64,000 nucleotides of DNA from Bacteroidaceae bacterium (GTDB taxonomy: Bacteria; Bacteroidota; Bacteroidia; Bacteroidales; Bacteroidaceae). Each line of letters opens with the position of its first letter. Positions within the stretch are counted from its first letter, which is position 1. The translations under genes were made by a program, and so were the position numbers. Shown piece after piece: positions 9,908 to 28,497 of this stretch. The notes below the pieces were generated by a model that was given only the letters and a program-made list of their open reading frames with translations, was not told the DNA's origin and searched no databases. Location: the NCBI GenBank assembly GCA_016280445.1, contig JAEEGS010000041.1, positions 1 to 64,000 on the forward strand, read 5' to 3'.

Positions 9908-9954
9908 AAAAAGAGTGGTCACCCAGGCAGTACGCTTGGGCGGCCACTCTTTTT
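9908..9954 (+). terminator. Intrinsic terminator after the GH128-like gene
   Basis: AAAAAGAGTGG pairs with CCACTCTTTTT, extended inward by CCCA/TGGG, around a short loop. The flanking A and T runs make it usable from either strand. It closes the two-gene secreted-protein unit starting at 5512. Confidence 0.88.
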
Positions 9955-10387
9955 CGTTCCCATTCCTCTTCAATGGCAGCGTCGCTTCCTATTAATTGGG
10001 AAAAGAGTCATCAATTCATCGGTAACGGAAGTGTCAATGAAATGGTAATGACGGTGTCATTTTTACACTTTTTTTTGTTTTCACGCTTTTCTGCACTTTA
10101 AGCTTACAAGATGCCCCTTCTAAAGAGAATTTAACTTTTTTAGCGTTAATTTGTGTTAAGAAAAATCATTTTCCTTTTGTCCTTACACAGATTTTTTAAG
10201 GATACTTCTTAAATTTGCAATGCTTTTGTGGCCGTAAAACGGCACACAAGTGTGACCAACCCAAAACCTGACACAACATCTATCACATTTGTGCTCTGGT
10301 AGTGCTGTTGTACACATATATATAATATATAGTGGAAGAGAAGTATGAATTATCTCAATTAAAAACTAAACAATATTCTAAACCTTT
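9955..10387 (+). other. Long upstream region and leader of the SusCD/FAS1 locus
   Basis: About 430 bp without a gene. It is AT-rich, with T runs, and holds the -7 box at 10210-10217. The downstream part would be a roughly 170-nt untranslated leader. I see no recognisable riboswitch, small ORF or strong dyad. The length suggests room for operator sites or a regulatory RNA structure. Confidence 0.5.
10210..10217 (+). promoter_or_regulatory. -7 box for the SusCD/FAS1 operon
   Basis: TAAATTTG matches the TAnnTTTG consensus. No convincing TTTG lies at the expected -33 distance; the nearest is at 10176-10179, about 30 bp away, so activation by a regulator is possible. Transcription would start near 10223, giving a leader of about 165 nt. 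Confidence 0.5.
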
Positions 10388-13300
10388 ATGAACAAACGCT
10401 TTTGTAAATTAGGACAGTATGCCGCTAAAGCATTCTTCCTATTTGCCATGTGCGGTACGACCTATTCATGCAAGGACGACTACGTCTTCGACGATGGAGA
10501 TCCATCGTGGCTCGGCTCTATTTATGGATATCTCGAAAGCCAAGGCAATTACACCAACTTTGTCAAGCTCATCAACGACCTGGGCTACAAGGAGGTGCTC
10601 GCTCGTACAGGTTCAAAAACAATGTTCGTTGCTGACGACGATGCTTTTGCAACCTTCTATCAGAGTAACGCATGGGGCGTAAGCAGTTACGACCAACTGA
10701 CTAAGAGTCAGAAGAAACTGCTGCTCAACACTGCGATGGTGAACAACGCCTATCTGCTCGAGATGATGTCGAGCACACCAGCTGGTTCTGGTGACAACGA
10801 CCTTCCACAAAAAGGCCAGGCACTTCGTCGTGAGACTGCTGCGGACGTGACAGACTCCGTACCTCACCTTTTTGCCGAAGACATTCCTTTCAGTTACAAC
10901 ACTGAGGACAAGGACTACTGGGCACGTTTCCGCAACAACGACAAGGGTATCTACCTTGCCCTCGACGCCAGCAATCCAATGATAACCCACTTCCTCGCCG
11001 CACAGATGGCCAAGAAGGACATCACAGATGCTGACTTCGAAATCATCACAGGACAGAAGCGCGACAAGAACGACGCATTCATCTATGACAGCAAGGTGTT
11101 GCAGCAAGACATCACTTGCCAGAACGGTTACATCAACTGCCTTGACAAGGTGCTTGTCAACCCACAGAACATGGCAGAGGTGCTGCGCACCAATGGCGAG
11201 ACAAAGGTTTTCAGCCACATGATTGACCGCTTCTCCGCTCCTTTCTACAATGCCACCTTGACAGAGCGTTACCGTCTGCTCTATGGCAACGACGTGGACT
11301 CTGTTTGGCAAAAGCGCTATTTCTCCAACCGCTCACAAGGCAACTCTGCCCTCAAGAGCGACAGGGGCACCGATCCTATCGGCAACCCCACAGGAAATAC
11401 TGTCAAATATTACCTGAACTTCGACCCAGGATGGAATGAATACTCAGCCAATGACCAAAATGCCAAGGAACAAGACATGGGTGTCATCTTCTGTCCAAGT
11501 GACAGGAAATTGATTCACTACTTCTTTGACGAGAACGGTGGTGGACACTTCCTCGTGAAAACTTACGCCCCCGACCTCGTGGCAGGCATCACTGGCGACA
11601 CCGAAGACTATGACAAGGTTTTCCAAGCTATCGACCAGATTCCACTCGACGTCATCCAGGAGCTCCTCAACAACCTGATGAAGCCATCCTTCAACAGTGC
11701 TGTGCCCAGTAAGTTCGAGACCATCAAGAACTCGGCACAAGACCCCATGTTTGACGAAGTTGACGATTACCATCGCGGCAAGATTCAGAAAGTGCTCTTG
11801 GCCAACAATGGTATCATCTACCTGATGGACGAAGTGACCACACCTGCACAATACGCAGCCGTGCTGGCACCAACTTATACAGAAACAGACAAGCAGATTT
11901 TCCGCTATGCCATCAAAGATATGGAAGTGGGTGGTACAAAACTCAACTACAATGCCTACCTGTTGGCCATGAGTTCCCGTTTCTCTTTCTTCGTCCCACA
12001 AGACGAAAATTTCTGGTATGTAGACCCACTTTCGTTCTATTCTCCAGAAGTAACGGCTGGCTCCACCACCCTCACAGGACGTGCCTACAAGTTCACTTGG
12101 GACGCCACCAAGAAAACCAACCAGTTGTCCGTGGCTTCCTACAAATATCTCTATGACCCCATCAACAAGACAGGTTCTATTGGAACACTTGTATCCAACG
12201 AGAATGTGAATGCCACATGCTACTCCAACCGTCTGAAAGACATGCTGGAGACCCACACCATCATCCACGAAGACAGCACTGCCGGTGCCATCATCAAGGA
12301 GACAGAAACAGGTGTGGAGTGCAACAAGCACTACTTCTACACCAAGAACAACGCTGTGCTGTATGTGGACAATGCCCAGCAACGTAAGGCTGGCATGACC
12401 GTGAAGGGCGGCTGGCACCTTGGCGATAACCCAAGCATCAGCGGTGCCAACGGTGACGAGTCCATCGACTACTGCACCGTCATTGGTTTCGATGACAAGT
12501 CTGCTCAAACCAACGGCTACGGTAACGGTTTCGCCTATATGATTGACGAGCCCATCATCCCAACCATTGAGTCTGTATTCTCTATCATGTACAACAACCC
12601 GAACTTCTCCAAGTTCTTCGCATTATGTCAGACCGACAATGCCGTGCTGGAAGAGATTGGCCTCAAGACTACTGCTGAAAAGGAAAAATACACCATCTTC
12701 ACCAACAACAAGGGTCTTCCATGCTATAGTTACAAGAAAGACGAGGATGGCAATTTCACCTCCGACTTTGGAAAGATTGACGGTAGTGACGCATCCAATA
12801 TCCGTTTCTTCAACAACTACCGCTACACTATCTACATTCCTACCAACGAAGCTATGGAAGAGGCAGAAAAGGCTGGATTGCCCACTTGGCAAGACCTGCG
12901 CGACATCCTCGAACTGGATCTTGAGAAGGATGAGAGAAAAGATCTGACAAACGACGAACTGAATGAACGCAATCAGCAGGTGAAAGAAATGATTGAGGTG
13001 ATGATTAACTTTGCAAAGTACCACTTCCAGGATAACAGCATCTTTGCTGACACACAACCTCTGGAAGCCACTGCATATGAAACAGCAACCCTCAACAGCA
13101 AGACTGGCACCTACCGCAAAGTGACCGTTGCTGGCAATGGTGGCAACAACCTCACCATCACCGACGCAACTGGCGTATCGCGCACTTTGACTGCAGACAA
13201 GAACTTAATTGCACGTGACTACATCACTGCCGGTAAGGCCAACGCTATCCAGAACACCATCACGACCAGTTCGTCAGCTGTCATCCACGGCATCAATGGT

Positions 13301-13402
13301 GTGCTGAACTTCACCGAGTATGAAGGAGGCAAATACAGTTCTGTATGGGAATCACCCTCTATGCACGACGCCTATTTCTCTAAGTATAGAATCACTGAAT
13401 AA
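10388..13402 (+). CDS. Fasciclin (FAS1) domain lipoprotein, 1004 residues
   Basis: First gene of the SusCD/FAS1 operon. The signal peptide ends in a lipobox TTYSC (Cys28), followed by KDDY. Lys plus two acidic residues after the Cys matches the Bacteroidetes lipoprotein export signal, so the protein is probably displayed on the cell surface. A FAS1-type segment begins about residue 38 (SIYGYLESQGNYTNFVKLI) with the typical TMFVADDDAF core. Similar patterns recur near 290, 510 and 750, suggesting several FAS1 or FAS1-like repeats. FAS1 domains mediate adhesion or ligand binding in other organisms; the ligand here is unknown. It ends 21 bp before the first SusC gene. Confidence 0.8.
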   Translation: MNKRFCKLGQYAAKAFFLFAMCGTTYSCKDDYVFDDGDPSWLGSIYGYLESQGNYTNFVKLINDLGYKEVLARTGSKTMFVADDDAFATFYQSNAWGVSSYDQLTKSQKKLLLNTAMVNNAYLLEMMSSTPAGSGDNDLPQKGQALRRETAADVTDSVPHLFAEDIPFSYNTEDKDYWARFRNNDKGIYLALDASNPMITHFLAAQMAKKDITDADFEIITGQKRDKNDAFIYDSKVLQQDITCQNGYINCLDKVLVNPQNMAEVLRTNGETKVFSHMIDRFSAPFYNATLTERYRLLYGNDVDSVWQKRYFSNRSQGNSALKSDRGTDPIGNPTGNTVKYYLNFDPGWNEYSANDQNAKEQDMGVIFCPSDRKLIHYFFDENGGGHFLVKTYAPDLVAGITGDTEDYDKVFQAIDQIPLDVIQELLNNLMKPSFNSAVPSKFETIKNSAQDPMFDEVDDYHRGKIQKVLLANNGIIYLMDEVTTPAQYAAVLAPTYTETDKQIFRYAIKDMEVGGTKLNYNAYLLAMSSRFSFFVPQDENFWYVDPLSFYSPEVTAGSTTLTGRAYKFTWDATKKTNQLSVASYKYLYDPINKTGSIGTLVSNENVNATCYSNRLKDMLETHTIIHEDSTAGAIIKETETGVECNKHYFYTKNNAVLYVDNAQQRKAGMTVKGGWHLGDNPSISGANGDESIDYCTVIGFDDKSAQTNGYGNGFAYMIDEPIIPTIESVFSIMYNNPNFSKFFALCQTDNAVLEEIGLKTTAEKEKYTIFTNNKGLPCYSYKKDEDGNFTSDFGKIDGSDASNIRFFNNYRYTIYIPTNEAMEEAEKAGLPTWQDLRDILELDLEKDERKDLTNDELNERNQQVKEMIEVMINFAKYHFQDNSIFADTQPLEATAYETATLNSKTGTYRKVTVAGNGGNNLTITDATGVSRTLTADKNLIARDYITAGKANAIQNTITTSSSAVIHGINGVLNFTEYEGGKYSSVWESPSMHDAYFSKYRITE

Positions 13403-13423
13403 TCAACTTACATGGAACGCAAT

Positions 13424-16400
13424 ATGAACAAGATTAAATTCATCATCTCATCTCTCGTGCTGTTCTTCTGTGTAAGTTCAGCAGTTGCTCAGCAACGACG
13501 CATCACCGGTTATGTCTATGACGACATGGGCGGCATCATGATGGCCAACGTTGTAGAGCGAGACAACAACAACCGTATTGTGGAAGCAGCCGTGACCGAT
13601 ATCAACGGTAACTTCTCAATGGTCATTAAAAATCCAAAAGACAGACTCGTCGTCAGTTACATCGGTTACAAGACTTGGAGCCAAGTCATCGGCAACACCA
13701 CCAAGTTCAACATCCGCCTGCAGGACAACACAACCTTGACGGAAGTGGTCGTGAAGGCAAAGCCAATGGTACAGAGCAACGGTATGACCATCCCACTCAA
13801 GGAAATCTCTGTAGCCACCCAAACCATGAACATGGATGATGTGGAAGGCCTTTCCTTCGCATCGGCCGACGAAGCCCTTCAGGGTAAAATTGCCGGTCTC
13901 GACATCATCGCCAACTCTGGTAACCTCGGTGCCGGTACTTCCATGCGTATGCGTGGTGTCAGCACCATCAATGGTTCTGCAGAGCCTCTCATTGTTGTGG
14001 ATGGTAACATTTTCGACCTGCCAGACGACGTGTCTGAAGTGAACTTTGAAGACCTCGACAACGAAGAGCAGTTCTCTACCCTCCTCTCGGTTAACCCTGA
14101 AGACATCAAGGAAATCAAGGTACTGAAGGATGCTGCTGCAACCGCCATCTGGGGTTCAAAAGGTGCCAATGGTGTGATTGAAATCACAACCCGTCGTGGT
14201 GTGACTGGTAAGACCAGGGTGAACTTCTCTTATCGTTTCTCTGGCGCTTGGGCACCTTCGGGGCTCAATATGCTCACGGGTGACGGCTATACCATGATGC
14301 TGAAGGAAGCCTATTTCAATCCTAAGCAGAACCGCGCCACATCCGACATGGTGGAGTTGAACTATGACCAATCCTACCCTGTACAATACTACAACTTCAA
14401 CAAGAACACAGATTGGGTGGATGCCGTGAACCAGTTCGGCCAAACACACAACTACTACGTGACACTCACGGGTGGTGGTGAGAAGGCCAAATTCCGCATT
14501 TCAGGCGGTTATGACCACCAGACAGGTACCATCATCAAACAGAAACTTGACCGTTTCTCCACGCGTCTTGTGCTCGACTATGATGTGTCTGACCGCATCC
14601 GTTTCTCTACAAACTTCGCACTCACCTACACCGATAACCACCGTAACTGGGACGGAAGTTCCACCGCATCTATCTTGGGTAAGGCATACAACAGCATGCC
14701 TAATATGTCCATCCACGAGTATGATCAGAACGGTGTGTTGACAGGTGACTACTACAAGATGCTGCCCACCAACCCAACAACCAACGCTGGTGGCAACAAC
14801 TACTACTCTTCTTACTATCTGAGTGACATGAAAGGAATCGGGAATCCTGTAGCCATTGCACATCAGGCTTTCAACAACCAGTCCACCTATCGTATCACGC
14901 CGCAGTTCAACCTTCAGTATAAACTGCTCGGTAAAGATGCTGATTCACACCAGTTGAATTTGAATGCCGAAATGTACATGGACATCTACAACGAGTCCTG
15001 CAACACCTACTTCCCTTCCTCACTGACAACCGACTCATGGTCTGCTGGCGTCAACAAGACGAGCAACAGCGAGTACAAGTCATTGGCACTCACCAACCGA
15101 GAGAAACTCGTGTTCATCCCACACTTCAACACGGATAAAATCTCCATGAGTATGTTGGGACAGTTTGAGTTCACCTCCGGAAACGGAACCAGCCAGAACC
15201 TGGCTCACAATGGTGTGCCAACAGGCATTAATTCATCCATCGCTGACGCCTATCTGACCTCAGCGTCTTCAGGCACCAGCCAGTGGCGCAGAGCCTCCAT
15301 GTTGGGAAGTATCCACATTGCTTTCTTCGACGGACGCTACTCTTTCGATGCCACTGTACGTCGAGACGGTTCCACCAAGTTCGGTGCAGGTCGCAAATGG
15401 GGTACATTCCCTGGTCTTTCTGCTCGTTGGAACATCAACCAGGAACCTCTCTTCGAAAAACTCACTCAAGCAATTGGCCTGAAAGAAGGTGTCATCTCCA
15501 TGCTGTCCTTCCGCCCATCATGGGGTCGCGTTGGTCGTGAACCAGGTGGTGAATACCTGATGTATAACACCTACAAGAGTTATGGTCTCTACGGCTCTAA
15601 TGGAAAAACCATGACAGCCATTTCACCAGACGGTCTCCGTCTGACAGATATCAAGTGGGCAACCACTTCCTCTTGGAACCTTGGTGCCAACTTGAACCTC
15701 TTCAACGACTTGTTGCAGTTCGACTTCAACTACTATAACAAGCAGACCAAAGACCTGCTCATGAGCGGTGTCGGCATCCCTGGTTCCACAGGATTCAATT
15801 CACTGTCTTGGAAGAACGTAGGTGGTCTGCGCAACCGTGGTTGGGAATTGTTCATGAACACAGGTAAGTTCCTGAAAAAGGGCAAGTTCTCCATGTCTGT
15901 CAACTTCAACATTGCTCAGAACATCAACACCATCACAGAAATGGATGCAACCGTGTTGGCATCTATGAACGGTGACTATTCGTACAACAATGCAGACTTC
16001 TTGAAGCGTATCCAGATTGGCAATGCCGTCGGTTCCATCTATGGTTTCCACTATCTCGGTGTTTACCGCTATGACTACGAGCACAATGGCTATACGGAAC
16101 TGTCACGAGAGACCTACGGAGACAACACTGCAGCCGCTGCTGAAGAGCGTGGTGAGAACGCCACCTTGCCAGTTGCACGTGACGCCAATGGCGCCATCCT
16201 GTACGATTCCAAGGGTAACCCACTCCACATGTACTTCAACTACGGAGGAAAGAACTATGAGTTCAAGGGTGGTGACGTGATGTATGAAGACATCAACCAC
16301 GATGGTCAAATCAACGAACTTGACATCATCTATCTGGGTAACTCTAACCCTAAGATGAATGGTGGTTTCGGTTTCAACTTCAACTATGGCCAGTGGACTC

Positions 16401-16846
16401 TCAAACTCTCGTTCAACTATCGTCTGGGTAACAGAATTGCCAACTTGGCACGTTTGAACAATGAGTCCATGCGTAGCAACATCAACCAATCGCAAGCCGT
16501 GGCTTGGCGTTGGCGCAAGAATGGTGACATCACCGAGATTCCACGTGCCATGAACGCTAACATCGGTGCATCATACAATGTGCTGGCTAGCGACCGTTTC
16601 GTGGAGAAGGGTGACTACCTCCGTCTGCAATACATGCAGTTAGGTTACTCCCTGCCCAACAAAGTCTGCAAAGACCTTGGTATCCAAAGCTTGCGTATCA
16701 GTGCTTCTGCCAACAACCTCTTCGTGCTCACCAAATATACAGGTATTGACCCTGAGGTTGGCTATGGTACATGGGGTGTTTGTATCGACAACTCTAAGAC
16801 ACCACGTGCCAAGTCATTCACAGTCAGCATAAATCTTGGATTCTAA
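13424..16846 (+). CDS. SusC-like TonB-dependent outer membrane receptor 1
   Basis: A 1140-residue SusC/RagA-family transporter. After a signal peptide ending SSAVAQ comes a carboxypeptidase-like regulatory domain (about 25-105, RRITGYVYDDMGG ... SYIGYKTW). Then follow the TonB box region (TTLTEVVV), the plug domain (ALQGKIAGLDI, MRMRGVSTINGS, PLIVVDGNIFD, SNGVIEITT-like end) and a large β-barrel ending in aromatic Phe. I chose ATG 13424; an ATG at 13412 adds four residues. It pairs with the SusD gene 23 bp downstream: SusD caps the SusC barrel and passes substrate to it. TonB and ExbBD homologues are in this window. Substrate unknown. Confidence 0.95.
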   Translation: MNKIKFIISSLVLFFCVSSAVAQQRRITGYVYDDMGGIMMANVVERDNNNRIVEAAVTDINGNFSMVIKNPKDRLVVSYIGYKTWSQVIGNTTKFNIRLQDNTTLTEVVVKAKPMVQSNGMTIPLKEISVATQTMNMDDVEGLSFASADEALQGKIAGLDIIANSGNLGAGTSMRMRGVSTINGSAEPLIVVDGNIFDLPDDVSEVNFEDLDNEEQFSTLLSVNPEDIKEIKVLKDAAATAIWGSKGANGVIEITTRRGVTGKTRVNFSYRFSGAWAPSGLNMLTGDGYTMMLKEAYFNPKQNRATSDMVELNYDQSYPVQYYNFNKNTDWVDAVNQFGQTHNYYVTLTGGGEKAKFRISGGYDHQTGTIIKQKLDRFSTRLVLDYDVSDRIRFSTNFALTYTDNHRNWDGSSTASILGKAYNSMPNMSIHEYDQNGVLTGDYYKMLPTNPTTNAGGNNYYSSYYLSDMKGIGNPVAIAHQAFNNQSTYRITPQFNLQYKLLGKDADSHQLNLNAEMYMDIYNESCNTYFPSSLTTDSWSAGVNKTSNSEYKSLALTNREKLVFIPHFNTDKISMSMLGQFEFTSGNGTSQNLAHNGVPTGINSSIADAYLTSASSGTSQWRRASMLGSIHIAFFDGRYSFDATVRRDGSTKFGAGRKWGTFPGLSARWNINQEPLFEKLTQAIGLKEGVISMLSFRPSWGRVGREPGGEYLMYNTYKSYGLYGSNGKTMTAISPDGLRLTDIKWATTSSWNLGANLNLFNDLLQFDFNYYNKQTKDLLMSGVGIPGSTGFNSLSWKNVGGLRNRGWELFMNTGKFLKKGKFSMSVNFNIAQNINTITEMDATVLASMNGDYSYNNADFLKRIQIGNAVGSIYGFHYLGVYRYDYEHNGYTELSRETYGDNTAAAAEERGENATLPVARDANGAILYDSKGNPLHMYFNYGGKNYEFKGGDVMYEDINHDGQINELDIIYLGNSNPKMNGGFGFNFNYGQWTLKLSFNYRLGNRIANLARLNNESMRSNINQSQAVAWRWRKNGDITEIPRAMNANIGASYNVLASDRFVEKGDYLRLQYMQLGYSLPNKVCKDLGIQSLRISASANNLFVLTKYTGIDPEVGYGTWGVCIDNSKTPRAKSFTVSINLGF

Positions 16847-16869
16847 CAACCGACGTAAAAGAGAAGAAA

Positions 16870-18780
16870 ATGAAAAATATCATCAAACATATAACATTCT
16901 GCGGACTGGTCTCAATCAGTGCTGGCATGGGGCTTTCTTCCTGCGAAGACTTCCTCACCATCACACCAACAGACCGAATCGTGGAAGAAGACTTCTGGAA
17001 GGACAAAAACGACCTGAACAGCGCTGTCATGGCATGCTACAAGCGCATGGTAGCCGATGACCTGCTTCGCAAGTACATCTATTGGGGCGAAGAACGTTCG
17101 GATAACTTCGACCGTTCCACTTCCACATCAGCCTCCGGTCCAGAGGCAAACATCATGAATGCCAACCTGCTGCCCACATATGGCCAGTTTGACTGGACAG
17201 CCATGTACAATGCCATTAACTATTGCAACAAGGTGTTGGCACACGGCAAGGATGTTATCCAGAACGACGAGAGTTTCTCGGAAAACAACTGGAAGCCTAT
17301 CCAGGCAGAAATCATCACTTTGCGTGCCTTGTGCCACTTCTACCTGGTGCGTACATTCGGTGAAGTGCCTTATATCACTACCGACTACAACAATGATGGT
17401 CAAATGCTCCTCTCTCCCCAGTCCACACAGCTGACTGTGCTCAACAACATCATCGACGACCTTGAATCCATCAAGGACGACGCAATGGTTGACTACGGCA
17501 ACACGGTGGAAAACAAGGGCCGCATCACCAAGAAGGCAGTCTATGCACTGCTGGCCGATGTGTATTTGTGGCGCGCATCTTACAAGGCGGGTAACAACCA
17601 ACCCTTCAAAAAAATATCGCTCGCAAAGAACTATATCGGTGAATTGACGGAGGAAGAACTTTCTTCACGTTATGAAGAGTATGAGACAACCGCTGAATCT
17701 GACTACCAGAAGTGCATCGACTACTGCGACCTCATTATCGACATGGCCTATCAGGAGAAACTCGAATACATCGAGAAGAACGGTCTGAACGTAGGTGGTA
17801 GCGCCATCGAACTTGAGTTGGAAGACCTCCTCGCTATCGAGGCAGAATCCACATCAAGAAGCAGAAAGAGTTACTACACCTCCTCCCGCACCGCTTATGC
17901 ACAGATTTTCGGCGTGGGTAATTCCGATGAATCCATCTTTGAACTTCAGGTGGAGGGAACTGACTATACCAACTCGATGGTGGGAAGTTTGTTCTACAGT
18001 CTGAATGGTAAAACCGGGTCTTTCACTGGCTCTGAGAGTCTTTTCTCAAGCATTGAATCTACACCCAACAACATCGATCCTCTATATGTTTTCACCAAGA
18101 CTGACTACCGCCGATGGGAAACCATCGTCTTTAAAGAGATTGGCCAGAACACATACGATATCGGTAAGTTCTCCAACAGCAGCGTGTCGCAGAGAAACTC
18201 AAACTCACGCACATTCTTAACAGACAACAACGCCAACGACTTGACGACAAATATGATTGAAGCCAGCAAAAGAAGCCGGCTTGACAACAACTGGATTATC
18301 TACCGCCTTTCGGAAGTGTTCCTCATGAAGGCAGAAGCCATGTCGCAGATTTACAACGACGAGGAGCACATGGCTGAGGCATTCCAATATGTACGTGAAG
18401 TTTTCAAGCGTTCGAACCCTTATGCTTACGAAGCCAGCAACGAAACTCGCAAGACCGATTCGCTCACATTCAAGAGCAATTTCGACACAGCGGACAAAAT
18501 GGAGGCTTTAGTAATGACAGAGCGTCACCGCGAGTTCGTGGGTGAAGGCAAACGCTGGTATGACCTCGTTCGCTATGCACTCCGTCGCGGCAACACCACC
18601 GACATGCTGAAGATTCTTTGCAAGAAATACACAAACAGCAAAGCCATCGAGGCAAAACTCGCTGACATGCAATCTCTCTTCTCACCCGTATATAACTCTG
18701 AAATCAAGAACAATGGTTTGTTGTATCAGAATGGAGTATGGTTTGTGAATGAGACTTCTTCAAGAACTGATGACCTATAA
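16870..18780 (+). CDS. SusD/RagB-like nutrient-binding lipoprotein 1
   Basis: A 636-residue partner of the preceding SusC. The lipobox is GLSSC followed by EDF, an acidic start typical of surface lipoproteins. The N-terminal helix TPTDRIVEEDFWKDKNDLNSAV and the segments ITLRALCHFYLVRTFGEVPYIT and RHREFVGEGKRWYDLVRY are diagnostic of the SusD family and its TPR-like helices. The 3' end overlaps an upstream in-frame ATG of the following lipoprotein gene, but the likely start of that gene is 13 bp after this stop. It is expected to bind the glycan or peptide ligand on the cell surface. Confidence 0.95.
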   Translation: MKNIIKHITFCGLVSISAGMGLSSCEDFLTITPTDRIVEEDFWKDKNDLNSAVMACYKRMVADDLLRKYIYWGEERSDNFDRSTSTSASGPEANIMNANLLPTYGQFDWTAMYNAINYCNKVLAHGKDVIQNDESFSENNWKPIQAEIITLRALCHFYLVRTFGEVPYITTDYNNDGQMLLSPQSTQLTVLNNIIDDLESIKDDAMVDYGNTVENKGRITKKAVYALLADVYLWRASYKAGNNQPFKKISLAKNYIGELTEEELSSRYEEYETTAESDYQKCIDYCDLIIDMAYQEKLEYIEKNGLNVGGSAIELELEDLLAIEAESTSRSRKSYYTSSRTAYAQIFGVGNSDESIFELQVEGTDYTNSMVGSLFYSLNGKTGSFTGSESLFSSIESTPNNIDPLYVFTKTDYRRWETIVFKEIGQNTYDIGKFSNSSVSQRNSNSRTFLTDNNANDLTTNMIEASKRSRLDNNWIIYRLSEVFLMKAEAMSQIYNDEEHMAEAFQYVREVFKRSNPYAYEASNETRKTDSLTFKSNFDTADKMEALVMTERHREFVGEGKRWYDLVRYALRRGNTTDMLKILCKKYTNSKAIEAKLADMQSLFSPVYNSEIKNNGLLYQNGVWFVNETSSRTDDL

Positions 18781-18793
18781 ATTAGCAAGAACA

Positions 18794-20899
18794 ATGAACA
18801 AGAACAATCATATCAAAAAATATTGCGGGGCCGCATTATTCATTTGTGCGGCATCTGCCGTAACGCTGAACTCCTGTACAGAGAACGTTGACGAAAGTGC
18901 TCTCTACACCTTCACAGGCGAGATGATGATTGACCACTTCGAAAATAATCCTGAGACATTCAGCAGTTACTACACCGTTTTGGGCATGGTTCATCAGAGC
19001 AAGCGTTCTCCTTCCACCATGAGGGATTTGCTGGATGCCCGTGGCAATTACACTTGTTTTGCCCCCACCAATGAAGCCATCGACATCTACCTTGACTCCC
19101 TCCTTGAAATCGGCGAGGTGGAGTCTAAGAACCTCGATGAACTTCCCGACTCAGTCGCAGAAGACATCGTGCTCAACTCTATCATTGAAAACGGTGACGA
19201 CGAAGCCTACCAGACCACGGCATTCGCTCACGATGTGCCACTCAACTTGACCAACATGAACGGGCGTTACATCACGCCATCATACGGCCTTGACGAGGAT
19301 AACAACACCATCCTCTACATCAACAAAGACTCTCGTGTGGTTGATGCTGACATCGAGGTGGAGAATGGTTACATCCATGCCGTTGACCACGTGCTATCTC
19401 CATCGAAAGATAACATCGGTGAGTTGATTATGGGCTTGGAAGACGTGAAACAGTTTGGAGAAATGCTTTCCCTGACAGGTTGGGACAAGAAAATCAGCAA
19501 GTATAGAGACCTGGAGTGGGAAGACAAGCACTACGACATTCTGGGCACAAAGTACACTTGCCGATATAACTCCGGCTATAGTGGTCGATATCCAGACAAG
19601 CGTAATTATGGCTACACCGTGTTTGCGGAACCTGATACACTCTTGGAACGCCTCGGCATCACTGACATCCCAACCCTGAAGGAGTATGTGAGAGCCAACA
19701 ACAACTTCGATGATGAAACCAATCTGGGGAATCAAACCAGTTGGGGTGATGATTATGAAAACCCCTACAACTGGCTCAACCAGTTTGTAGCTTACCACAT
19801 TCTTCCTGAAAAACTCAGCGCCAAGAAAGCGGGTGGTCTCGTGACTTTCGCCAACGAATATGGTGTCAGACTGAACGAGCGCAGAAATGAAGGTGACAAA
19901 TTCAGAGTTACTGTGAATGTCTGGGATTATTGGGAGACTGTGGGCGTTCAACGTCGTTCCCTCAAGATTACGGGCGGAAACATGAATGGCTCTCTTCAGC
20001 GCCGCATCAACCGTAAATCGGTATATAACATGACCAACTATCAAGAAGTCGCTTCCAACATCACCATTCCTGGGATCTTGATACTTGAGGAAGGTGCAGT
20101 TGAGGCCAAAAACGGATTCTTCTACCCCATTAACGACATTCTCCTTTGGACGAAGGATGTTCCAACCAAGGTGTTGAACGAGCGTATGCGATATGACGTC
20201 ACATCTCTGTTCCCCGAAATGTTGACGAATGAAATCAAACAAAACCGTGTCGACTCATGGTTCTTCCCACATGACTACTTCGACAATGTGTACGAAATTA
20301 CTGACGCAACAGAATTTGAGTACATGCCAAACACTGGATGGGAAAGTTGGGACGGCGGTTGGAGTGATTTCCAAGGCGACGAATTCAACATTCGTGGTCC
20401 TGTGGACTTCACCATGAAGTTGCCACCAGTTCCTTACACAGGTACCTACGAACTCCGTTTTGGTGTATGGATCAGTAGTAACCGTGGTATGGCACAGATT
20501 TACATGGGTAAGAACCCAAGGAACCTGCCAGCTCTCGGTGTGCCAATCGACCTCCGTGAAACGGGTGTTGGTAGAGACCTTACAGGCTGGACAGAAGAAG
20601 CAAGAATCAAAGCAACAGTGGCTGACTCAACGGCTCTATATGAAAACCAGAAAACCATGCGTAACCTGGGCTTCATGAAAGGACCGAAATATATCCAGCT
20701 CAATGACAATAAAACACAGCGCGATGGTTATGGTAGCGTACGTAAGATTATCTTCACCGGCACGCTTGAAGCAGGTGAGACCTACTGGATCCGCTTCAAG
20801 TCCGTACTCGACAACAATGCGCTTGAATTCTTCTACGACTACATTGAACTCGTTCCCAAGGCTGTCTATGCTGGCGAATACAACGAGGATATTTGGTAA
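18794..20899 (+). CDS. Fasciclin (FAS1) domain lipoprotein, 701 residues
   Basis: The start at 18794 (MNKNNHIKK) gives a normal lipoprotein signal with the lipobox LNSC; an ATG at 18749 would bury it behind 15 residues. A FAS1 domain occupies about residues 45-210: MRDLLDARGNYTCFAPTNEA, then a segment ending YIHAVDHVLSPS, the classic FAS1 end motif. A second FAS1-like unit follows (about 225-450, FAEPDTLLERLGI to FYPINDILLW). The C-terminal 200 residues form a predicted β-sandwich (YTGTYELRFGVWISSNRG) that looks like a binding module. It lies 13 bp after SusD 1 in the same operon. Ligand unknown. Confidence 0.82.
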   Translation: MNKNNHIKKYCGAALFICAASAVTLNSCTENVDESALYTFTGEMMIDHFENNPETFSSYYTVLGMVHQSKRSPSTMRDLLDARGNYTCFAPTNEAIDIYLDSLLEIGEVESKNLDELPDSVAEDIVLNSIIENGDDEAYQTTAFAHDVPLNLTNMNGRYITPSYGLDEDNNTILYINKDSRVVDADIEVENGYIHAVDHVLSPSKDNIGELIMGLEDVKQFGEMLSLTGWDKKISKYRDLEWEDKHYDILGTKYTCRYNSGYSGRYPDKRNYGYTVFAEPDTLLERLGITDIPTLKEYVRANNNFDDETNLGNQTSWGDDYENPYNWLNQFVAYHILPEKLSAKKAGGLVTFANEYGVRLNERRNEGDKFRVTVNVWDYWETVGVQRRSLKITGGNMNGSLQRRINRKSVYNMTNYQEVASNITIPGILILEEGAVEAKNGFFYPINDILLWTKDVPTKVLNERMRYDVTSLFPEMLTNEIKQNRVDSWFFPHDYFDNVYEITDATEFEYMPNTGWESWDGGWSDFQGDEFNIRGPVDFTMKLPPVPYTGTYELRFGVWISSNRGMAQIYMGKNPRNLPALGVPIDLRETGVGRDLTGWTEEARIKATVADSTALYENQKTMRNLGFMKGPKYIQLNDNKTQRDGYGSVRKIIFTGTLEAGETYWIRFKSVLDNNALEFFYDYIELVPKAVYAGEYNEDIW

Positions 20900-20916
20900 C
20901 AAAAAAAAGAAAGAAT

Positions 20917-22794
20917 ATGAATATCAATAATATAAAATGGCTCACAGGTTCACTGATGACAGCAGCGCTTGCTGCTGGCATCAGCGCCTGCACGGATGAT
21001 CATTTCGACATCTCATCCGCTGCAGCAGGCAAGCAAACGGTCTGGCAAAACATCCAGTCAAACAGTGAAAAACTGAGTGAGTTTGCCGACATCCTGCAAA
21101 GTGTTTACTACTCGCAGACTGAGGAGAAGGCCACTCCTGAAACATATGCCGACCTGCTCAATGGTGACCAAACATTCACAGTGTGGGCACCTGTCAACGG
21201 TTCTTTCAACTACTCTTACTATAAGGGCTTGATTGAAACTGGCATCCGTGATAGTATCTACAAGGTGGAAAAAGAATTGATTCGCAACAACATGAACCGT
21301 TACAGCACTGCAGTCAACGGTACAGACACGGCTGTTATCAAACTCTACAACAGCAAGGGTGCCACAATCAATTTTGACAAATTTACCATCAAAGGTGTGA
21401 ACATCCAGCAAGCCAACATTGGTGCAAAGAACGGTGTGCTTCACATCTTGGAAAATCCTGTGCCTTATCAGCCCAATCTCTATGAGTACCTTGGGACGCG
21501 ACGTGACCTCGACTCCATCAACACCTTCATCAAGAGTTTCCAAACGACGGAGTTCAATGAGTATGCATCAACCCTTGGCCCTACGGTCAACGGAAAAATT
21601 ACATGGGTGGATTCCATCACTTCCATCTCCAATGATTACACCACCTACTACATGCGTGCACGTCTCAATGCCGACGACTCTTTGTATGCGATGGTCATAC
21701 CTACGAATACTGCATGGACAGAGACCCTGGCAAAAACCAAAAAATATTTCAAGTTTAAGGAGGTTTACGAGCAGGACGTCAACACACAGACAGAAGCCGG
21801 AGTCGACACCCTCATCAAGGGAAAGAAGACTACTTTCACTCAAGCAGAACTGGATTCTCTGCTTAACCACTATGCAAAGAATGCCATCTGCGAGAACCTT
21901 GCATTCAACGCCAAATGGCAGTATGAGCAGATTCCTATCGCTACCATTGCTGACATTCAGGCTGTAGATGAACGTCAGGACTCCCTCCTTTCAACAGCAG
22001 GCACCAAGTTCAAGAAAACTGGCACACTCAACTTAACTAACGGCACAAGCGTTGTTGAAGTTGACAACTATGCCCAAATGTTTGGTAATGCCGATCCTGT
22101 GAAAGTGAGCAACGGTTATGCATACGTGACAGACCAGTTTAACTATCCATTCCATACGTATGCACCTATCATCGATGAGAACGGTATCACAGCCTATGAG
22201 TCAAAAGATAACGCTTGTGACCCTGTTTCTGGTAACAAAATCTATCAGGAGCCCACAGTCATCATCGACGATGAAACCATAGAGTGCGACTCTACCTTCA
22301 GATATTCATTCTTGAGAATGCAACCTAAGGGTAATGTGCATCCTGGTGCTTTCTTCAAATTATTCAATGTGCTTTCATGCAAGTATGACATTTACGTGGT
22401 CATCAATTATAACACGGACTACGATTTGCGCAACAAGTTCTACGTGTATATCTCTTATGACAAAGAAGATACGCGCGAAAACAACATCCGTCTTACGAAC
22501 CCAGACCCAGAGGCGATTGATGCCAGCGGTGAATCCCTTCTCGGGACGAATTTTTTCGTCAACAGAGGTATGCACTACAACCAAAAGGGAGAAGTGGACT
22601 ACACGGACACCCTTCTCGTTGCTAAGGACTTCGAGTTCCCTGTATGTTACTACGGAATCTCCAACAACGCCTACCCTGTCATAAACATTAAAAGTTATTT
22701 TAAATCTAGCGAACGTTCATTGTACTGCCGAGAGATTTGGGTCAACTCCATTATCTTGAAGCCGAAAGAGTGGACTGCAAGTGAAGAAGAATAG
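20917..22794 (+). CDS. Fasciclin (FAS1) domain lipoprotein, 625 residues
   Basis: The start at 20917 (MNINNIKWL) gives a signal peptide with lipobox GISAC followed by TDDHFD; a TTG at 20893 is unlikely because it overlaps the preceding stop. A FAS1 domain (about 30-170) has SEFADILQSV, TFTVWAPVNGSF and the ending NGVLHILENPV. A second, more divergent unit follows (about 175-400). The C-terminal 200 residues are β-rich (YSFLRMQPKGNVHPGAFFKL) and probably a binding module. Only 17 bp separate it from the previous FAS1 gene, so the two may be duplicates that have diverged. Confidence 0.78.
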   Translation: MNINNIKWLTGSLMTAALAAGISACTDDHFDISSAAAGKQTVWQNIQSNSEKLSEFADILQSVYYSQTEEKATPETYADLLNGDQTFTVWAPVNGSFNYSYYKGLIETGIRDSIYKVEKELIRNNMNRYSTAVNGTDTAVIKLYNSKGATINFDKFTIKGVNIQQANIGAKNGVLHILENPVPYQPNLYEYLGTRRDLDSINTFIKSFQTTEFNEYASTLGPTVNGKITWVDSITSISNDYTTYYMRARLNADDSLYAMVIPTNTAWTETLAKTKKYFKFKEVYEQDVNTQTEAGVDTLIKGKKTTFTQAELDSLLNHYAKNAICENLAFNAKWQYEQIPIATIADIQAVDERQDSLLSTAGTKFKKTGTLNLTNGTSVVEVDNYAQMFGNADPVKVSNGYAYVTDQFNYPFHTYAPIIDENGITAYESKDNACDPVSGNKIYQEPTVIIDDETIECDSTFRYSFLRMQPKGNVHPGAFFKLFNVLSCKYDIYVVINYNTDYDLRNKFYVYISYDKEDTRENNIRLTNPDPEAIDASGESLLGTNFFVNRGMHYNQKGEVDYTDTLLVAKDFEFPVCYYGISNNAYPVINIKSYFKSSERSLYCREIWVNSIILKPKEWTASEEE

Positions 22795-22817
22795 TATAAC
22801 TCCTAAATAACAAGAAC

Positions 22818-25800
22818 ATGAAAAATCAGAATATTCACAAAGGCTTTTTTCGCCTCGGTATGGGTCTCATGATGTTATCAGGAGCGACTACCCTATTTGC
22901 GCAAGAAGCAGAAGAATCAACACCACAGCAGCCAGCCAAGACAAGAACCGTCATCACCGCTCCTCAATATGAGATGAAGGAAGTGAGCGGTTATGTGTAC
23001 GACGCTGCCACCAAGGCACCTATAGATGGTGCCAAGGTACAGGCATACGGCAACGGCAGATACTCTGTCATGACTGGCGAAGACGGAAAATACACTCTCA
23101 AAGTGCCTGTGTTTGTCAACTCACTCTACATAACAGTGCTTGAGTACAATGATGTACAGGTGAGTTTCGATGGTGCCACGGCTCCATCCGTAGGACTCTA
23201 CAGCAGCAAGTTCAACACGGTCTATTCACCCAAGACCAGCATCACTGCCAGTGCTGTGGCCAACGTGAACAACACTTCCGCCATCATTATAGATGAAGAG
23301 ATTGACAATAAACTGTCTGGCGACGTTCACACCATTAACCGTTCTGGCTTGCGTGGACAAGGTGCAGCCATGTTCATTCGAGGACTCAACTCGCTGAACA
23401 TCAATGCACAGCCACTTATCGTGCTCGATGGAATGTTGATGGATCCACAACTTGACCGCACCAGCATACACGAAGGTTTCTTCAACAACATCCTTGCTGG
23501 TATCGATCCTGAAGATATCGAGACCGTGGAAGTGATGAAAAACGCTACTTCACTCTATGGTGCCCGTGGCGGCAACGGTGTGGTCATCATCAACACCAAG
23601 CGTGGTCACTCTATGGCAACCAAAATCAATGTGAGTGTCAACGCAGGCTTTGAACCTAAGCCATCGCTCACACCCATGATGAATGCCAGCCAGTACCGTT
23701 CTTACCTCAGTGACCTGATGGGTACAACCACCTACGGCTCTGAGTACAACACGGCTAACACTGCGATACCATTCCTGAACAGCAACCCGAACTATTATTG
23801 GTATCCAATGTACCACAACGAGACAGACTGGTCAAGCGGCCTGTATCGTACAGCAGCCACCCAGAACTATAAGGTGAATGTACAAGGTGGTGATGATGTG
23901 GCCATGTACAACCTTGCTCTTGGTTACACAAACTCTCAATCCACCGCTAAGAGCAACGGTTTTGATCGTCTGAACATTCGTTTCAACACCGACATCAAAC
24001 TGATCAAGAATCTGTCCACTCAACTTGACCTCGCCTATTCGAAGATAACGAACAATCTCCGAGACAACGGCTGGGCAGAGTCTTACACCACCAACACCAT
24101 TTCTTCTCCTAATGTACTGGGCTATACCCAAGCACCATTCCTCTCAAAGTATGGTTACTACACCGGTGACGATGGAAAACTGCATTTGTCTTCTGTGTAT
24201 GCTGGTAAGTATATTAGTGATGACAACTATCCATTCAACTTCGCTTCCGCTTATGGAACGAATGTGGCACAGGCCAACCCCTATTGGATTCTCCAGAATG
24301 GTCAAGGCGAGAACAAGAACCGACAAGAGGTGACCCAATTCAACCTCAACATCATGCCTAAGTGGGAAATCAACAAGCATTTGAACATCACCAACCGCTT
24401 TGCTTATCAGTTGAACCGTTCCAATGAGAAATACTACCTCCCAGAGGCCGGTATCCCTTCCTTCAACTATGAAGGCTACGGTGATGTCACTTCGGGGGTA
24501 AGATCTCTCTTCTCGAAAGAGACCTCTGTCTATGAGGACTTCCGCATCAACTGGACAAACAACTACAAAGGCATCCATGACCTGACGGTGTTCGGTGGTC
24601 TCCGCTTCACAAGCAACAGGTTCTCAGACTCCTACATGCGTTCTTACAATACCGGTAATGACAAAATGCCTAACATGACCCCCACTTTCCGCTCTGTGGA
24701 AGGTAGCCAGGATGCATGGAACAATTTGGCGTACTATGCACATGGACGTTGGGCTGTGAAGAACACTTACATTCTGGAAGGAACATTCTCCGCTGAAACT
24801 TCTTCACGTTTTGGCAAGAAAACAAAGGAAGGTGTGAAAGTGTTTGGTGTCAAATGGGGTCTCTTTCCAAGCCTCCAAGCAGGTTGGGTCCTGACCAATG
24901 AAAAGTGGTTGGCCAACGTGAAGGGTCTCGATTATCTGAAAATGACAGTGGGTTACGACGAGTCTGGTAATGACAACATTGACTATGCAGCAGCCCGCAC
25001 ATACTTCAAATCCTACACGTTCTTGAAAAACGCCACAGCGCTCCAACTGACCAACGTGGAGAACCCCTCCATCCAATGGGAAACCACCCGTCGCTGGAAT
25101 TTAGGCCTCAACGGCTCTTTCTTCAACAATCGTGTTCAGGCTGGCATTGACCTCTACACGTCCAAGACCAGCAACTTGATTACTTACAAGAGCATCAACT
25201 ATCTCTCAGGTCTCTCTGGCTATCTGTGCAACGGTGGCTCACTCACCAACAAGGGTATTGATGCAAGAGCCAACATCATCCTTATCAACTCAAAAGACTT
25301 CAAATGGCAGATTGGTGCTACACTCGGACACTACAAGAATAAAATCAAGTCGCTGCCAGAGGGTGACTACACCCAGAATATCTATGGCGCCGAGGTTCTC
25401 ACTTCTGTAGGCCATGCGGCAGGTGTCTTCTACGGCTACAAGACAGCTGGTGTCTTCTCCACTGATGCAGCCGCTTCAACAGCACACACCAGCATTGACG
25501 AGCAGGGTCAGCCACACAGCGACTATCTGAAGTACCCCACTGGCATCACCAAGAATCCATATCGAAACTTCTCTGCCGGTGACATTCATTTCGTTGATCT
25601 CTACAAAGATGGTATCATCGACGAAAAGGACAAGACCATCATCGGTGACCCGAACCCAGACATCTACGGAACGATTTACACGAACTTCGCATACAAGCGC
25701 TGGAGTCTTGACATCAACTTCAAGTATTCTGTTGGCAACGACATCTACAACTACCAACGTTCACAGCTGGAGTCTCTGAGTTCCTTCTACAACCAGACCA

Positions 25801-26153
25801 CCGCAGCTGTCAATCGTTGGACCTACGATGGAGACAACGCACTTCTGCCACGCGCCATGTCGCCCGAATCAGAAAGTTGGGTGAACAACGAACGCTTCTC
25901 CGACCGCTGGATTGAAAATGGCTCATACTTCAAACTGAAGAAGATTCGCCTCTCATACGAGTTGCCTCTCAATGCATCTTGGATTCAGGGTCTCACCATC
26001 TGGGGCGAAGCCAACAACCTTGTGACACTGACCAAATACACAGGTAAAGATCCTGAGTTCTCCTGTGGCAACAGTGTCCTCTATCAAGGTATCGACGCAG
26101 GTTTGCTCCCCAGCAACAGAAGTTTCAATCTCGGTGTTAAAATCAACTTGTAG
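22818..26153 (+). CDS. SusC-like TonB-dependent outer membrane receptor 2
   Basis: A 1111-residue SusC/RagA-family protein. The signal peptide ends TTLFAQ; a short acidic linker and a carboxypeptidase-like regulatory domain (VSGYVYDAATKAPIDGAKVQ) follow. The plug shows LSGDVHTINRSGLRGQGAAM, PLIVLDGMLMD and GARGGNGVVIINTK, and the barrel ends in NRSFNLGVKINL. It differs clearly from receptor 1, with a longer linker and divergent plug, so the locus holds two distinct uptake channels. Its SusD partner follows after 62 bp. Confidence 0.94.
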   Translation: MKNQNIHKGFFRLGMGLMMLSGATTLFAQEAEESTPQQPAKTRTVITAPQYEMKEVSGYVYDAATKAPIDGAKVQAYGNGRYSVMTGEDGKYTLKVPVFVNSLYITVLEYNDVQVSFDGATAPSVGLYSSKFNTVYSPKTSITASAVANVNNTSAIIIDEEIDNKLSGDVHTINRSGLRGQGAAMFIRGLNSLNINAQPLIVLDGMLMDPQLDRTSIHEGFFNNILAGIDPEDIETVEVMKNATSLYGARGGNGVVIINTKRGHSMATKINVSVNAGFEPKPSLTPMMNASQYRSYLSDLMGTTTYGSEYNTANTAIPFLNSNPNYYWYPMYHNETDWSSGLYRTAATQNYKVNVQGGDDVAMYNLALGYTNSQSTAKSNGFDRLNIRFNTDIKLIKNLSTQLDLAYSKITNNLRDNGWAESYTTNTISSPNVLGYTQAPFLSKYGYYTGDDGKLHLSSVYAGKYISDDNYPFNFASAYGTNVAQANPYWILQNGQGENKNRQEVTQFNLNIMPKWEINKHLNITNRFAYQLNRSNEKYYLPEAGIPSFNYEGYGDVTSGVRSLFSKETSVYEDFRINWTNNYKGIHDLTVFGGLRFTSNRFSDSYMRSYNTGNDKMPNMTPTFRSVEGSQDAWNNLAYYAHGRWAVKNTYILEGTFSAETSSRFGKKTKEGVKVFGVKWGLFPSLQAGWVLTNEKWLANVKGLDYLKMTVGYDESGNDNIDYAAARTYFKSYTFLKNATALQLTNVENPSIQWETTRRWNLGLNGSFFNNRVQAGIDLYTSKTSNLITYKSINYLSGLSGYLCNGGSLTNKGIDARANIILINSKDFKWQIGATLGHYKNKIKSLPEGDYTQNIYGAEVLTSVGHAAGVFYGYKTAGVFSTDAAASTAHTSIDEQGQPHSDYLKYPTGITKNPYRNFSAGDIHFVDLYKDGIIDEKDKTIIGDPNPDIYGTIYTNFAYKRWSLDINFKYSVGNDIYNYQRSQLESLSSFYNQTTAAVNRWTYDGDNALLPRAMSPESESWVNNERFSDRWIENGSYFKLKKIRLSYELPLNASWIQGLTIWGEANNLVTLTKYTGKDPEFSCGNSVLYQGIDAGLLPSNRSFNLGVKINL

Positions 26154-26215
26154 CCCCACCCTCCTATGGGAGAGGCCATTCGGATAAAAACAACTTCTAT
26201 AAACATATTACTATC

Positions 26216-28438
26216 ATGATTACTTATCAAATAAAGAAATATATACTTCGCACGGCAGCGTTAGCCCTTCCTCTCTTGGGACTGGGGGGCTTTACCTCCT
26301 GCGAGGACATGATGACAGTAGACACGGGTGACAAGGCCTACCGCAATGCACAAGATACGCTCTACTCTTATCTCGGCATCATGCGTGCCATGCAGGACGT
26401 GGCAGAACGCCAAGTGATACTCGGTGAAATACGAGGCGATCTGGTGACTTCAACCGACTACACAACGGATACACTCCATGCCATCTCTAACTTTGACACG
26501 GAGAGTCCCTACTGGAAAGACCGCAGTGAGAATGACAATGAGAGTTGCTCCATGCTGCAAGTGAGTGACTACTATAACATCATCAACAACTGCAACTTTT
26601 ACATCCAGAACGCTGACACCAATGCAGTGAAGTCGAATATCAAGTTTATGATACCAGAGTATGCACAGGTGAAAGCCGTTCGTGCATGGGCTTACCTACA
26701 ACTTGTCAAGAACTACAAGGAAGTGCCATACATCACCAGACCTGTTAACAATCTCAGCGTCATCGAGAACTTTGACTATCAAGGAAATCTGGTTAACAAA
26801 GACAACCTCGTGGACAAGTTCATCGAAGACGGCCTTTCCAACTTCATTAACACGCCTTATCCTCAATATGGTTCAGCAGCATCTCCCAACGGCAAATGGG
26901 AAAACGGTTACACGACCATCGATGCCCGCATGATGATGATACCTATCCGCATCCTGCTTGCCGACAGTTACCTGCTCCGTGGTGCCTCAACCAGCGACTA
27001 TGAGAAGGCTGCACAGTATTACTATGATTATCTGAAGAATGAGACTGAGACAACCCCCTTGTACCTGCAATATTGCACTGCAGACAACATCTTGCGCTCC
27101 AACTCCATCGATTATTCAAGAATAAATAATTGGGGTTCGTGGGCTTCCGAATACTCTTATTCTACTTCCCAAAACGAAGTCATCTCGCTCATTCCAAGTT
27201 CTGCCAATGCAGGCTTCGGCAAGATGCTGACACGTGTAGCAGACATCTATGGCTACACCCCATCATCATCGCAGTCATCGCATGCTATCGATCAAAACGC
27301 CGACGACAACACCACAGGTTCTGACTCTGAATCTTCTGGTAACATTTCTGTCAGCAGAAACTACAAGCGTCAGTATGCTCCGTCAAATGCATTCCAGGAG
27401 GTGGCCAACAACCAAACTTATGTGGAATATACGGGTACGACATCCACAAATCCTCAAGCCCGTTACATTGAGAACTGTGATGCACGTTACGGAAGTTCTA
27501 TAGAAAACCTCACCTACGAAGGTGATGCCTACCCACTTTGCAGCAAGGCTGCTCGTGGCGCTGCTTTCTACTACTCTATTCCAATCTACAGAAAGACCCT
27601 CATCTGGCTCCGCTTAGCCGAGGCTATCAATCGTGCAGGTTATCCTGAATTTGCCTTTGCAATCCTGAAAGACGGTATCACCCAATACTCGCTCCCCACT
27701 TATGTCAATCGTTATATTCCAAGACATGACGATGAAGGACGTGTCATCTACTACAACAGAATCGAAGACAATTACCGTTATAAAGATACGGAAACAGGCA
27801 TCTTCTACGAGTTCGACGAAGAAGGTACATTGGTTGAAGTGGAAGGCATGACTGGTTCCAGTTACATGATAGTAAGGGACACGTTGTACAACGACTCCCT
27901 CAGTTACGGCACTTACGGAGCCATGTACTATGTCACCGACACTGTAAAACTGAACAAATTCAACACATTCCTCAATTTTAAGAACGACCATTGGGACAAC
28001 ATGTACGGACTCCATGCCAGAGGAGCAGGTCTGGGCAATTGGGCCTCTAATAATGGAACAACCATCACCAACATTGCGGGCTATCACGACTCCGTCTACT
28101 ATGACTACTCCAAGCTGCTCCTTGCTCAAGGTGTCAAATTAGAAAGTGCTTCAGAAGAAGACATCATCAATGCCGTGGAGAATCTCATCGTAGATGAATT
28201 GGCACTGGAGACTGCTTTTGAGGGCAACCGTTTCACAGACCTTGTCCGCATTGCCGAGCACAAGAACATGTCTGGCTACAATGGTACAGAATGGCTCGCC
28301 AACAAGATTGCAAACCGAGGCACAAAGACTGCCACTCCTACAAGTGCAGGTGTGGACGGCTTTGACCAATCCCTCTTCGACAAATTGAAAAACGTATCTG
28401 CATGGTACTTCCCATTGCCAAAGTGGAAGACCAAATAG
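26216..28438 (+). CDS. SusD/RagB-like nutrient-binding lipoprotein 2, long form
   Basis: A 740-residue SusD-family lipoprotein, longer than the usual 500-650. The lipobox is GFTSC followed by EDM. Family features are YYNIINNCNFYIQ, VKAVRAWAYLQLVKNYKEVPYIT, RKTLIWLRLAEAINRAGYPEFA, and near the C-terminus LETAFEGNRFTDLVRIAEHKN. Extra length comes from a Ser/Asp-rich segment (about 348-375) and an acidic, Tyr-rich insertion (about 505-590, including FYEFDEEGTLVEVEG). It partners receptor 2 and is the last gene of the operon, followed by a terminator. Confidence 0.92.
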   Translation: MITYQIKKYILRTAALALPLLGLGGFTSCEDMMTVDTGDKAYRNAQDTLYSYLGIMRAMQDVAERQVILGEIRGDLVTSTDYTTDTLHAISNFDTESPYWKDRSENDNESCSMLQVSDYYNIINNCNFYIQNADTNAVKSNIKFMIPEYAQVKAVRAWAYLQLVKNYKEVPYITRPVNNLSVIENFDYQGNLVNKDNLVDKFIEDGLSNFINTPYPQYGSAASPNGKWENGYTTIDARMMMIPIRILLADSYLLRGASTSDYEKAAQYYYDYLKNETETTPLYLQYCTADNILRSNSIDYSRINNWGSWASEYSYSTSQNEVISLIPSSANAGFGKMLTRVADIYGYTPSSSQSSHAIDQNADDNTTGSDSESSGNISVSRNYKRQYAPSNAFQEVANNQTYVEYTGTTSTNPQARYIENCDARYGSSIENLTYEGDAYPLCSKAARGAAFYYSIPIYRKTLIWLRLAEAINRAGYPEFAFAILKDGITQYSLPTYVNRYIPRHDDEGRVIYYNRIEDNYRYKDTETGIFYEFDEEGTLVEVEGMTGSSYMIVRDTLYNDSLSYGTYGAMYYVTDTVKLNKFNTFLNFKNDHWDNMYGLHARGAGLGNWASNNGTTITNIAGYHDSVYYDYSKLLLAQGVKLESASEEDIINAVENLIVDELALETAFEGNRFTDLVRIAEHKNMSGYNGTEWLANKIANRGTKTATPTSAGVDGFDQSLFDKLKNVSAWYFPLPKWKTK

Positions 28439-28463: not shown

Positions 28464-28497
28464 AAGCCCTGAAGACAAACGTCTTCGGGGCTTTTCT
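28464..28497 (+). terminator. Intrinsic terminator closing the SusCD/FAS1 operon
   Basis: AAGCCCTGAAGAC (28464-28476) pairs with GTCTTCGGGGCTT (28481-28493), with one G-U pair and a four-base AAAC loop, followed by a T-rich tract. It separates the seven-gene operon from deoD. Confidence 0.9.

Follow-up and report, generated by a model that had tools for sequence, protein, structure and literature searches.

The nearest described systems to the locus reported here are the SusC/SusD (SusCD) utilisomes of Bacteroides for levan and dextran (PMC7618045). Two SusCD pairs within one polysaccharide utilization locus (PUL) are on record for the arabinan PUL BT0361-BT0364 and for xusABCD of Prevotella bryantii (PMC8002723), and a Gramella cellulose/hemicellulose-like PUL includes a FAS1 protein near SusD (PMC4891872); these statements, like those below, draw on the accessible portions of the cited papers. 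SusCD utilisomes and two-pair PULs are thus already known, and mention of FAS1 as a recurring surface partner was limited to passing remarks (PMC10199937, PMC4891872) in the literature searched for FAS1 or fasciclin with SusD, in which subscription papers were thinly covered. Here, we describe a seven-gene unit at positions 10388-28438 of a 64,000-nucleotide stretch (contig JAEEGS010000041.1, assembly GCA_016280445.1) of a Bacteroidaceae bacterium, hereafter the window. Its seven open frames, all on the plus strand, encode FAS1-A, SusC1, SusD1, FAS1-B, FAS1-C, SusC2 and SusD2, in the order and at the coordinates reported by a first-pass annotation made from the sequence alone. We think it probable that these genes constitute a conserved, co-inherited outer-membrane module that captures and imports complex glycans of large size, most likely plant cell-wall material that bears uronate or rhamnose.

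Recurrence and inheritance of the module

In the genome to which the window belongs, all seven PF02469 matches fall in three clusters with identical seven-gene order, the other two copies being 23-49% identical to that of the window. Within the genus, a FAS1-B match was present in 36 of the 37 genomes searched (own genome counted), and 17 of 19 orthologous loci carry the complete set; the remaining two are G029, which is cut by a contig end, and G004, which lacks SusD2. A contig scan, in which the best 80 of 171 confirmed relatives were kept, yielded 79 loci, 54 of them complete and in order. The carriers include rumen and horse-faeces metagenome-assembled genomes, Paludibacter, Candidatus Symbiothrix, Paraprevotella and Xylanibacter muris. 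Among the 25 incomplete loci, 12 are cut by a contig end (L088 also has a split SusD2), L084 and L124 lack SusD2, L139 lacks FAS1-A and L120 has FAS1-A at the end; at the other nine (L103, L112-L117, L126 and L143), a FAS1-B homologue occurs with no SusCD in the sequence available around it.

An order-level sample of 392 genomes from 205 genera had FAS1-B matches at E ≤ 1e-20 in 38 genomes and 29 genera, and a phylum-level sample of 392 genomes had them in nine; the own genome is counted in each sample, and many of the matches are confined to the N-terminal FAS1 part. Thirty-eight neighbourhoods were inspected (30 from these searches and 8 others). In 31 of them, six or more module genes were present, and 27 of these 31 keep the exact order; the remaining seven of the 38 were dropped because their main run contained fewer than six different ones. 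Pooling the three copies of the window genome, the neighbourhoods and the scan loci gave 83 complete modules, or 81 after removal of two near-identical pairs. With 81 distinct complete modules, the gene order is far beyond chance, and the recurrence of a FAS1-SusCD arrangement among relatives, a comparison that the first-pass annotation had suggested, is clearly present.

Does this constant order reflect inheritance as one unit? Across the 83 complete modules, the correlation between pairwise distances is 0.91-0.98 among the seven proteins, and 0.92 or above between the FAS1 proteins and the importer pairs. In trees built from 41 of the 81 modules with a small outgroup (four additional SusCs or SusDs of these loci), each of SusC1, SusC2, SusD1 and SusD2 was monophyletic with support of 0.97-1.0. 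The correlated distances, together with the separate clade of every SusC and SusD, show that the seven-gene set is moved or inherited as a single unit. Median gaps across modules are 11-26 nt. A lipobox is present in 78 (FAS1-A), 77 (SusD1), 77 (FAS1-B), 80 (FAS1-C) and 83 (SusD2) of the 83 copies, against a background of 20 and 15 of 83 in the two SusCs. Thus, the FAS1 proteins share with surface glycan-binding proteins the trait of being predicted lipoproteins encoded in a SusCD operon, with a lipobox in 77-80 of 83 copies.

Several variants were also observed. In L120 and G427:C7, FAS1-A follows SusD2. Several of the nine FAS1-B homologues that have no SusCD in the available sequence adjoin a conserved gene of ~1150 aa (five loci) and a gene of ~523 aa (four loci). 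In the own genome (contig C40), L032:12513-14243 encodes a secreted protein of 576 aa that is 46% identical to FAS1-B residues 233-716, has no homology to the N-terminal FAS1 domain of FAS1-B, and follows an open reading frame (ORF) with a type IX secretion system (T9SS) sorting tail.

Structure of the window copy

The features of the window are presented in Table 1. The intergenic gaps are, in order, 9 (21 from the second ATG of SusC1), 23, 13, 17, 23 and 62 nt; these values assume the ATG starts of FAS1-B and FAS1-C, as the longest ORFs begin earlier and overlap, and with these starts the short gaps noted in the first pass hold at 9-62 nt. The -7 box noted there is present, and 17 of the 19 orthologous loci have a TAnnTTTG box in the 320 nt that precede FAS1-A (raw count). 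The terminator hairpin also proved to be in place, with 13 pairs (7 G-C), and ranked first in a terminator scan that overall found 20 sites versus 16.5 in shuffles, i.e., no excess. The downstream phosphorylase gene has its own promoter-like TTTG/TACCTTTG pair at 28568-28599. Such a layout makes it possible to suggest that the seven genes form one transcription unit, a prediction from sequence signals.

Table 1 Features of the window, with coordinates, strand and basis of assignment
Feature	Position	Strand	Basis
M64 peptidase	5512..6945	+	PF09471
Up961, putative clan-A-type glycoside hydrolase, outside operon	6994..9879	+	homology, linkage to module
Hairpin terminator closing upstream unit	9909..9955	+	separates Up961 gene from seven-gene unit
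-7 promoter-like box TAAATTTG	10210..10217	+	sequence
FAS1-A, 1004 aa lipoprotein	10388..13402	+	Pfam, iterated profile, model
SusC1, TonB-dependent outer-membrane transporter	13412..16846	+	TIGR04056 652 bits
SusD1 lipoprotein	16870..18780	+	PF07980, PF14322
FAS1-B lipoprotein	18794..20899 (longest ORF from 18749)	+	Pfam, profile, model
FAS1-C lipoprotein	20917..22794 (longest ORF from TTG 20893)	+	profile
SusC2, TonB-dependent outer-membrane transporter	22818..26153	+	TIGR04056 568 bits
SusD2 lipoprotein, divergent	26216..28438	+	PF07980 27.5 bits; SusD2 clade
Intrinsic terminator	28464..28493	+	terminator scan
U1100, secreted, HETGHGVGVGQH zincin-like motif and beta-trefoil-like part	29358..32660	+	motif, homologues
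GH28 (polygalacturonase family)	32662..34023	+	PF00295 80 bits

Families of the seven genes were assigned with Pfam and NCBIfam. Both SusCs exceed the TIGR04056 (SusC/RagA) cut-off of 368 bits, and against the PF07980 cut-off of 23.1 bits SusD1 is a clear member (79.5 bits) and SusD2 a weak SusD_RagB match. The lipobox cysteine is visible in all three FAS1 proteins and both SusDs of the window, in agreement with the earlier reading. The PF02469 scores of FAS1-A, FAS1-B and FAS1-C are 36.9, 49.3 and 20.1 bits, respectively, the last lying just under the cut-off of 22. Its assignment to the FAS1 family is nevertheless supported, since the FAS1-C family profile matches periostin (E 1.7e-19); it also aligns with FAS1-B in profile comparison at 98% probability. 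Therefore, FAS1-A and FAS1-B belong to the family by both PF02469 and fold, and FAS1-C by profile, which outlines one FAS1 domain followed by a C-terminal part without an assigned family.

An iterated profile finds three FAS1 domains in FAS1-A, and the FAS1-A model aligns with the four-FAS1 proteins TGFBIp and periostin (15-17% identity in the alignments), so that it is probably a long, four-domain arm. The FAS1-B model comprises two FAS1 domains and a C-terminal beta-sandwich that is CBM35-like by fold and may bind glycans. No SusE/F fold was found among the structure matches listed for the FAS1-A and FAS1-B models, and a SusE/F-like identity of these two proteins was set aside in favor of the FAS1 folds in the models.

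Approximately 170 nt (10218-10387) separate the -7 box from the FAS1-A start codon, with no Rfam match there. The Rfam scan of the window gave no RNA family at gathering score; a tRNA-Ser was predicted by ARAGORN at 43318-43406, also with no Rfam match at that score.

Enzymes, regulators and neighboring genes

Pfam detected no enzyme among the seven window genes and no regulator among the nine window neighbors scanned; thus, the unit has the SusC/SusD pair of a PUL, with no carbohydrate-active enzymes inside it and no adjacent regulator. The earlier statement that enzymes and a regulator are missing is valid at this level and fails for the system as a whole, as several copies lie amid glycosidases, lyases, esterases and hybrid two-component system (HTCS) regulators, and a candidate glycosidase gene, which we refer to as Up961, lies upstream in the window. 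In G094, genes for GH88, GDSL, GH28, SASA and GH115 proteins precede the module and those for a rhamnogalacturonate-lyase-family protein and GH2 follow it, all on the same strand. The G162 copy is preceded by RhaT, an aldolase/dehydrogenase, a TIM-barrel isomerase and an FGGY kinase, which we read as L-rhamnose catabolism, and is followed by GH2. GDSL and SASA genes lie downstream of the G318 copy, and M28 peptidase and amidase genes upstream; GH30, esterase, HTCS and GH51 genes lie beside that of G239. In the window genome, the C63 copy is flanked on one side by genes for GH115, GH43, GH30, GH95 and esterases, and on the other by a divergent M60 peptidase gene. The commonest families among 65 further co-directional flanking proteins were HTCS parts (four to six), T9SS tails (six) and GH2 (four), with GH67 and GH43 in two each.

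Do these neighbors point to one substrate? Within 25 kb of FAS1-B, GH115 was found in 3 of 66 cases (1.9 expected; no enrichment) and GH28, among the matches listed, in at least 10 of 177 (4.4 expected, P 0.015; weak enrichment), while the GH13 control gave at least 2 of 221 among the matches listed (4.6 expected). Distances were taken edge to edge to the FAS1-B place with near matches picked by eye, and another distance measure gave nine for GH28. These counts do not allow any single substrate to be claimed. With no enrichment of GH115 around the modules and a weak one of GH28, the copies probably serve different plant glycans. The link to a substrate, left blank in the first pass, can thus be narrowed, with caution, to plant cell-wall glycans.

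No Pfam family reaches E 0.05 for the Up961 protein of the window. Over 494 aa, it shares 50% identity with a Glyco_hydro_cc (PF11790) protein whose gene lies directly downstream of the G239 module. It also retains NEPG and SEW motifs, which are typical of the acid/base and nucleophile residues of clan A; the former motif is absent from some homologues within the genus. Up961 is probably a cryptic glycoside hydrolase, encoded in a separate unit directly upstream of the module. In 35 genomes, 7 of 12 strong homologues lie within 9 kb of a FAS1-B gene, or 6 of 11 without the window (~0.4 expected, P 1e-6), at a threshold (E < 1e-60) picked after the list was viewed; at E < 1e-40, the counts are 7 of 18 and 6 of 17 (P 1e-5). 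These P values use rounded genome sizes and assume independent places, which holds only in part (six genera and five families, G457 and G693 being congeneric); adjacency in G520, G693 and G629 was taken from coordinates. A G427 protein labeled Up961 matched by its C-terminal tail only and was left out of the count.

Within the genus, among the orthologous loci with at least 6 kb upstream, Up961 precedes the module in 13 of 16 and the M64 peptidase in 12 of 16, the linkage of the latter having been examined within the genus; GH28 follows in 8 of 14 loci with at least 10 kb downstream. Homologues of U1100 adjoin Up961 homologues and a module in G239, G457, G693 and G520. U1100 itself has an HExxH zincin-like motif and a beta-trefoil-like part with no clear Pfam family, and is possibly a metallopeptidase of an undescribed group.

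Proposed function and comparison with known systems

How might such a module work? The two SusC barrels with their SusD lids would carry out TonB-dependent import, and the three FAS1 surface lipoproteins would act as glycan-grabbing or scaffolding arms in the role played elsewhere by SusE/F-type proteins: FAS1-A as a long multi-FAS1 arm, FAS1-B presenting its CBM35-like domain on two FAS1 domains, and FAS1-C as a shorter FAS1 protein. On the model of SusCD utilisomes, these lipoproteins would most likely grapple the substrate and hand fragments to the two importers, while the cutting enzymes would be supplied by neighboring or distant units, Up961 being the best candidate in the window. The replacement of SusE/F-type proteins by FAS1 proteins in surface capture and uptake, as originally proposed, gains support from the constancy of the module, from the lipoboxes and from folds of FAS1 and CBM-like type; glycan binding itself is a prediction. 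A bolder version, possible and put forward only tentatively, is a distinct class of outer-membrane import machine: periostin-like multi-FAS1 arms would hold two different SusCD transporters together as a permanent pair and deliver branched plant glycans or glycopeptides to the two lids, which would differ in specificity, and the FAS1 fold, known for adhesion, would serve as a scaffold for nutrient import across Bacteroidia.

The metallopeptidases and the glycosidase alongside the module may instead indicate foraging on glycoproteins, with import of glycopeptides from plant arabinogalactan-proteins or host mucins. The frequent M64 and Up961 genes upstream, the HExxH protein U1100 downstream, whose homologues in other genera adjoin Up961 and a module, the M60 gene divergent from the C63 copy and the M28 gene near that of G318 all fit such a diet, and GH115, GH43, GH30, GH95 and GH51 would suit arabinogalactan too. 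However, no peptidase was found among the scanned flanks of the G094 and G162 copies, which carry rhamnogalacturonan-type enzymes or L-rhamnose catabolism, and the M64 linkage is known within the genus only; we regard this explanation as rather unlikely.

It is less probable still that the FAS1 proteins chiefly attach cells to plant fiber or to neighbors, with SusCD import secondary. Eukaryotic FAS1 proteins mediate cell-surface interactions (PMC6032426), the FAS1-A model resembles periostin and TGFBIp, and the FAS1 part can apparently work alone, given the nine FAS1-B homologues without SusCD in the available sequence; nevertheless, the tight co-inheritance of the FAS1 genes with two importer pairs fits import better. 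Surface glycan-binding proteins are usually encoded after SusD, as is the case at SusD1, and an ordinary PUL importer whose SusE/F-like proteins were mislabeled as FAS1 would have this layout; yet sequence, profile and model all give FAS1 for FAS1-A and FAS1-B, as does the profile for FAS1-C, leaving such mislabeling a very slight chance.

If the capture-and-import reading is true, it defines a recurring kind of importer that employs the FAS1 adhesion fold for nutrient capture and is present three times in this genome and also in many related gut bacteria. It would give the "fasciclin domain-containing" lipoproteins of Bacteroidota a function-testable context and raises the question of why two SusCD pairs are kept in one unit.

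The Gramella PUL and the present module have FAS1 near SusD in common, and no double-SusCD seven-gene module is described in the accessible text on the former (PMC4891872). The arabinan PUL BT0361-BT0364 and xusABCD likewise place two SusC/SusD pairs in a single cluster that targets a plant polysaccharide, but enzymes take part in those systems and the accessible text mentions no FAS1 protein (PMC8002723). With the utilisomes, the module shares a set of jointly encoded outer-membrane parts, namely a SusC barrel, a SusD lid and surface lipoproteins (PMC7618045); here, the genes specify two SusCD pairs, three FAS1 lipoproteins replace the surface glycan-binding protein and the surface glycosidase, and the unit contains no enzyme. 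Finally, FAS1-A is a multi-FAS1 protein like periostin and TGFBIp, but at 15-17% identity and in a set of bacterial lipoproteins encoded within an importer operon.

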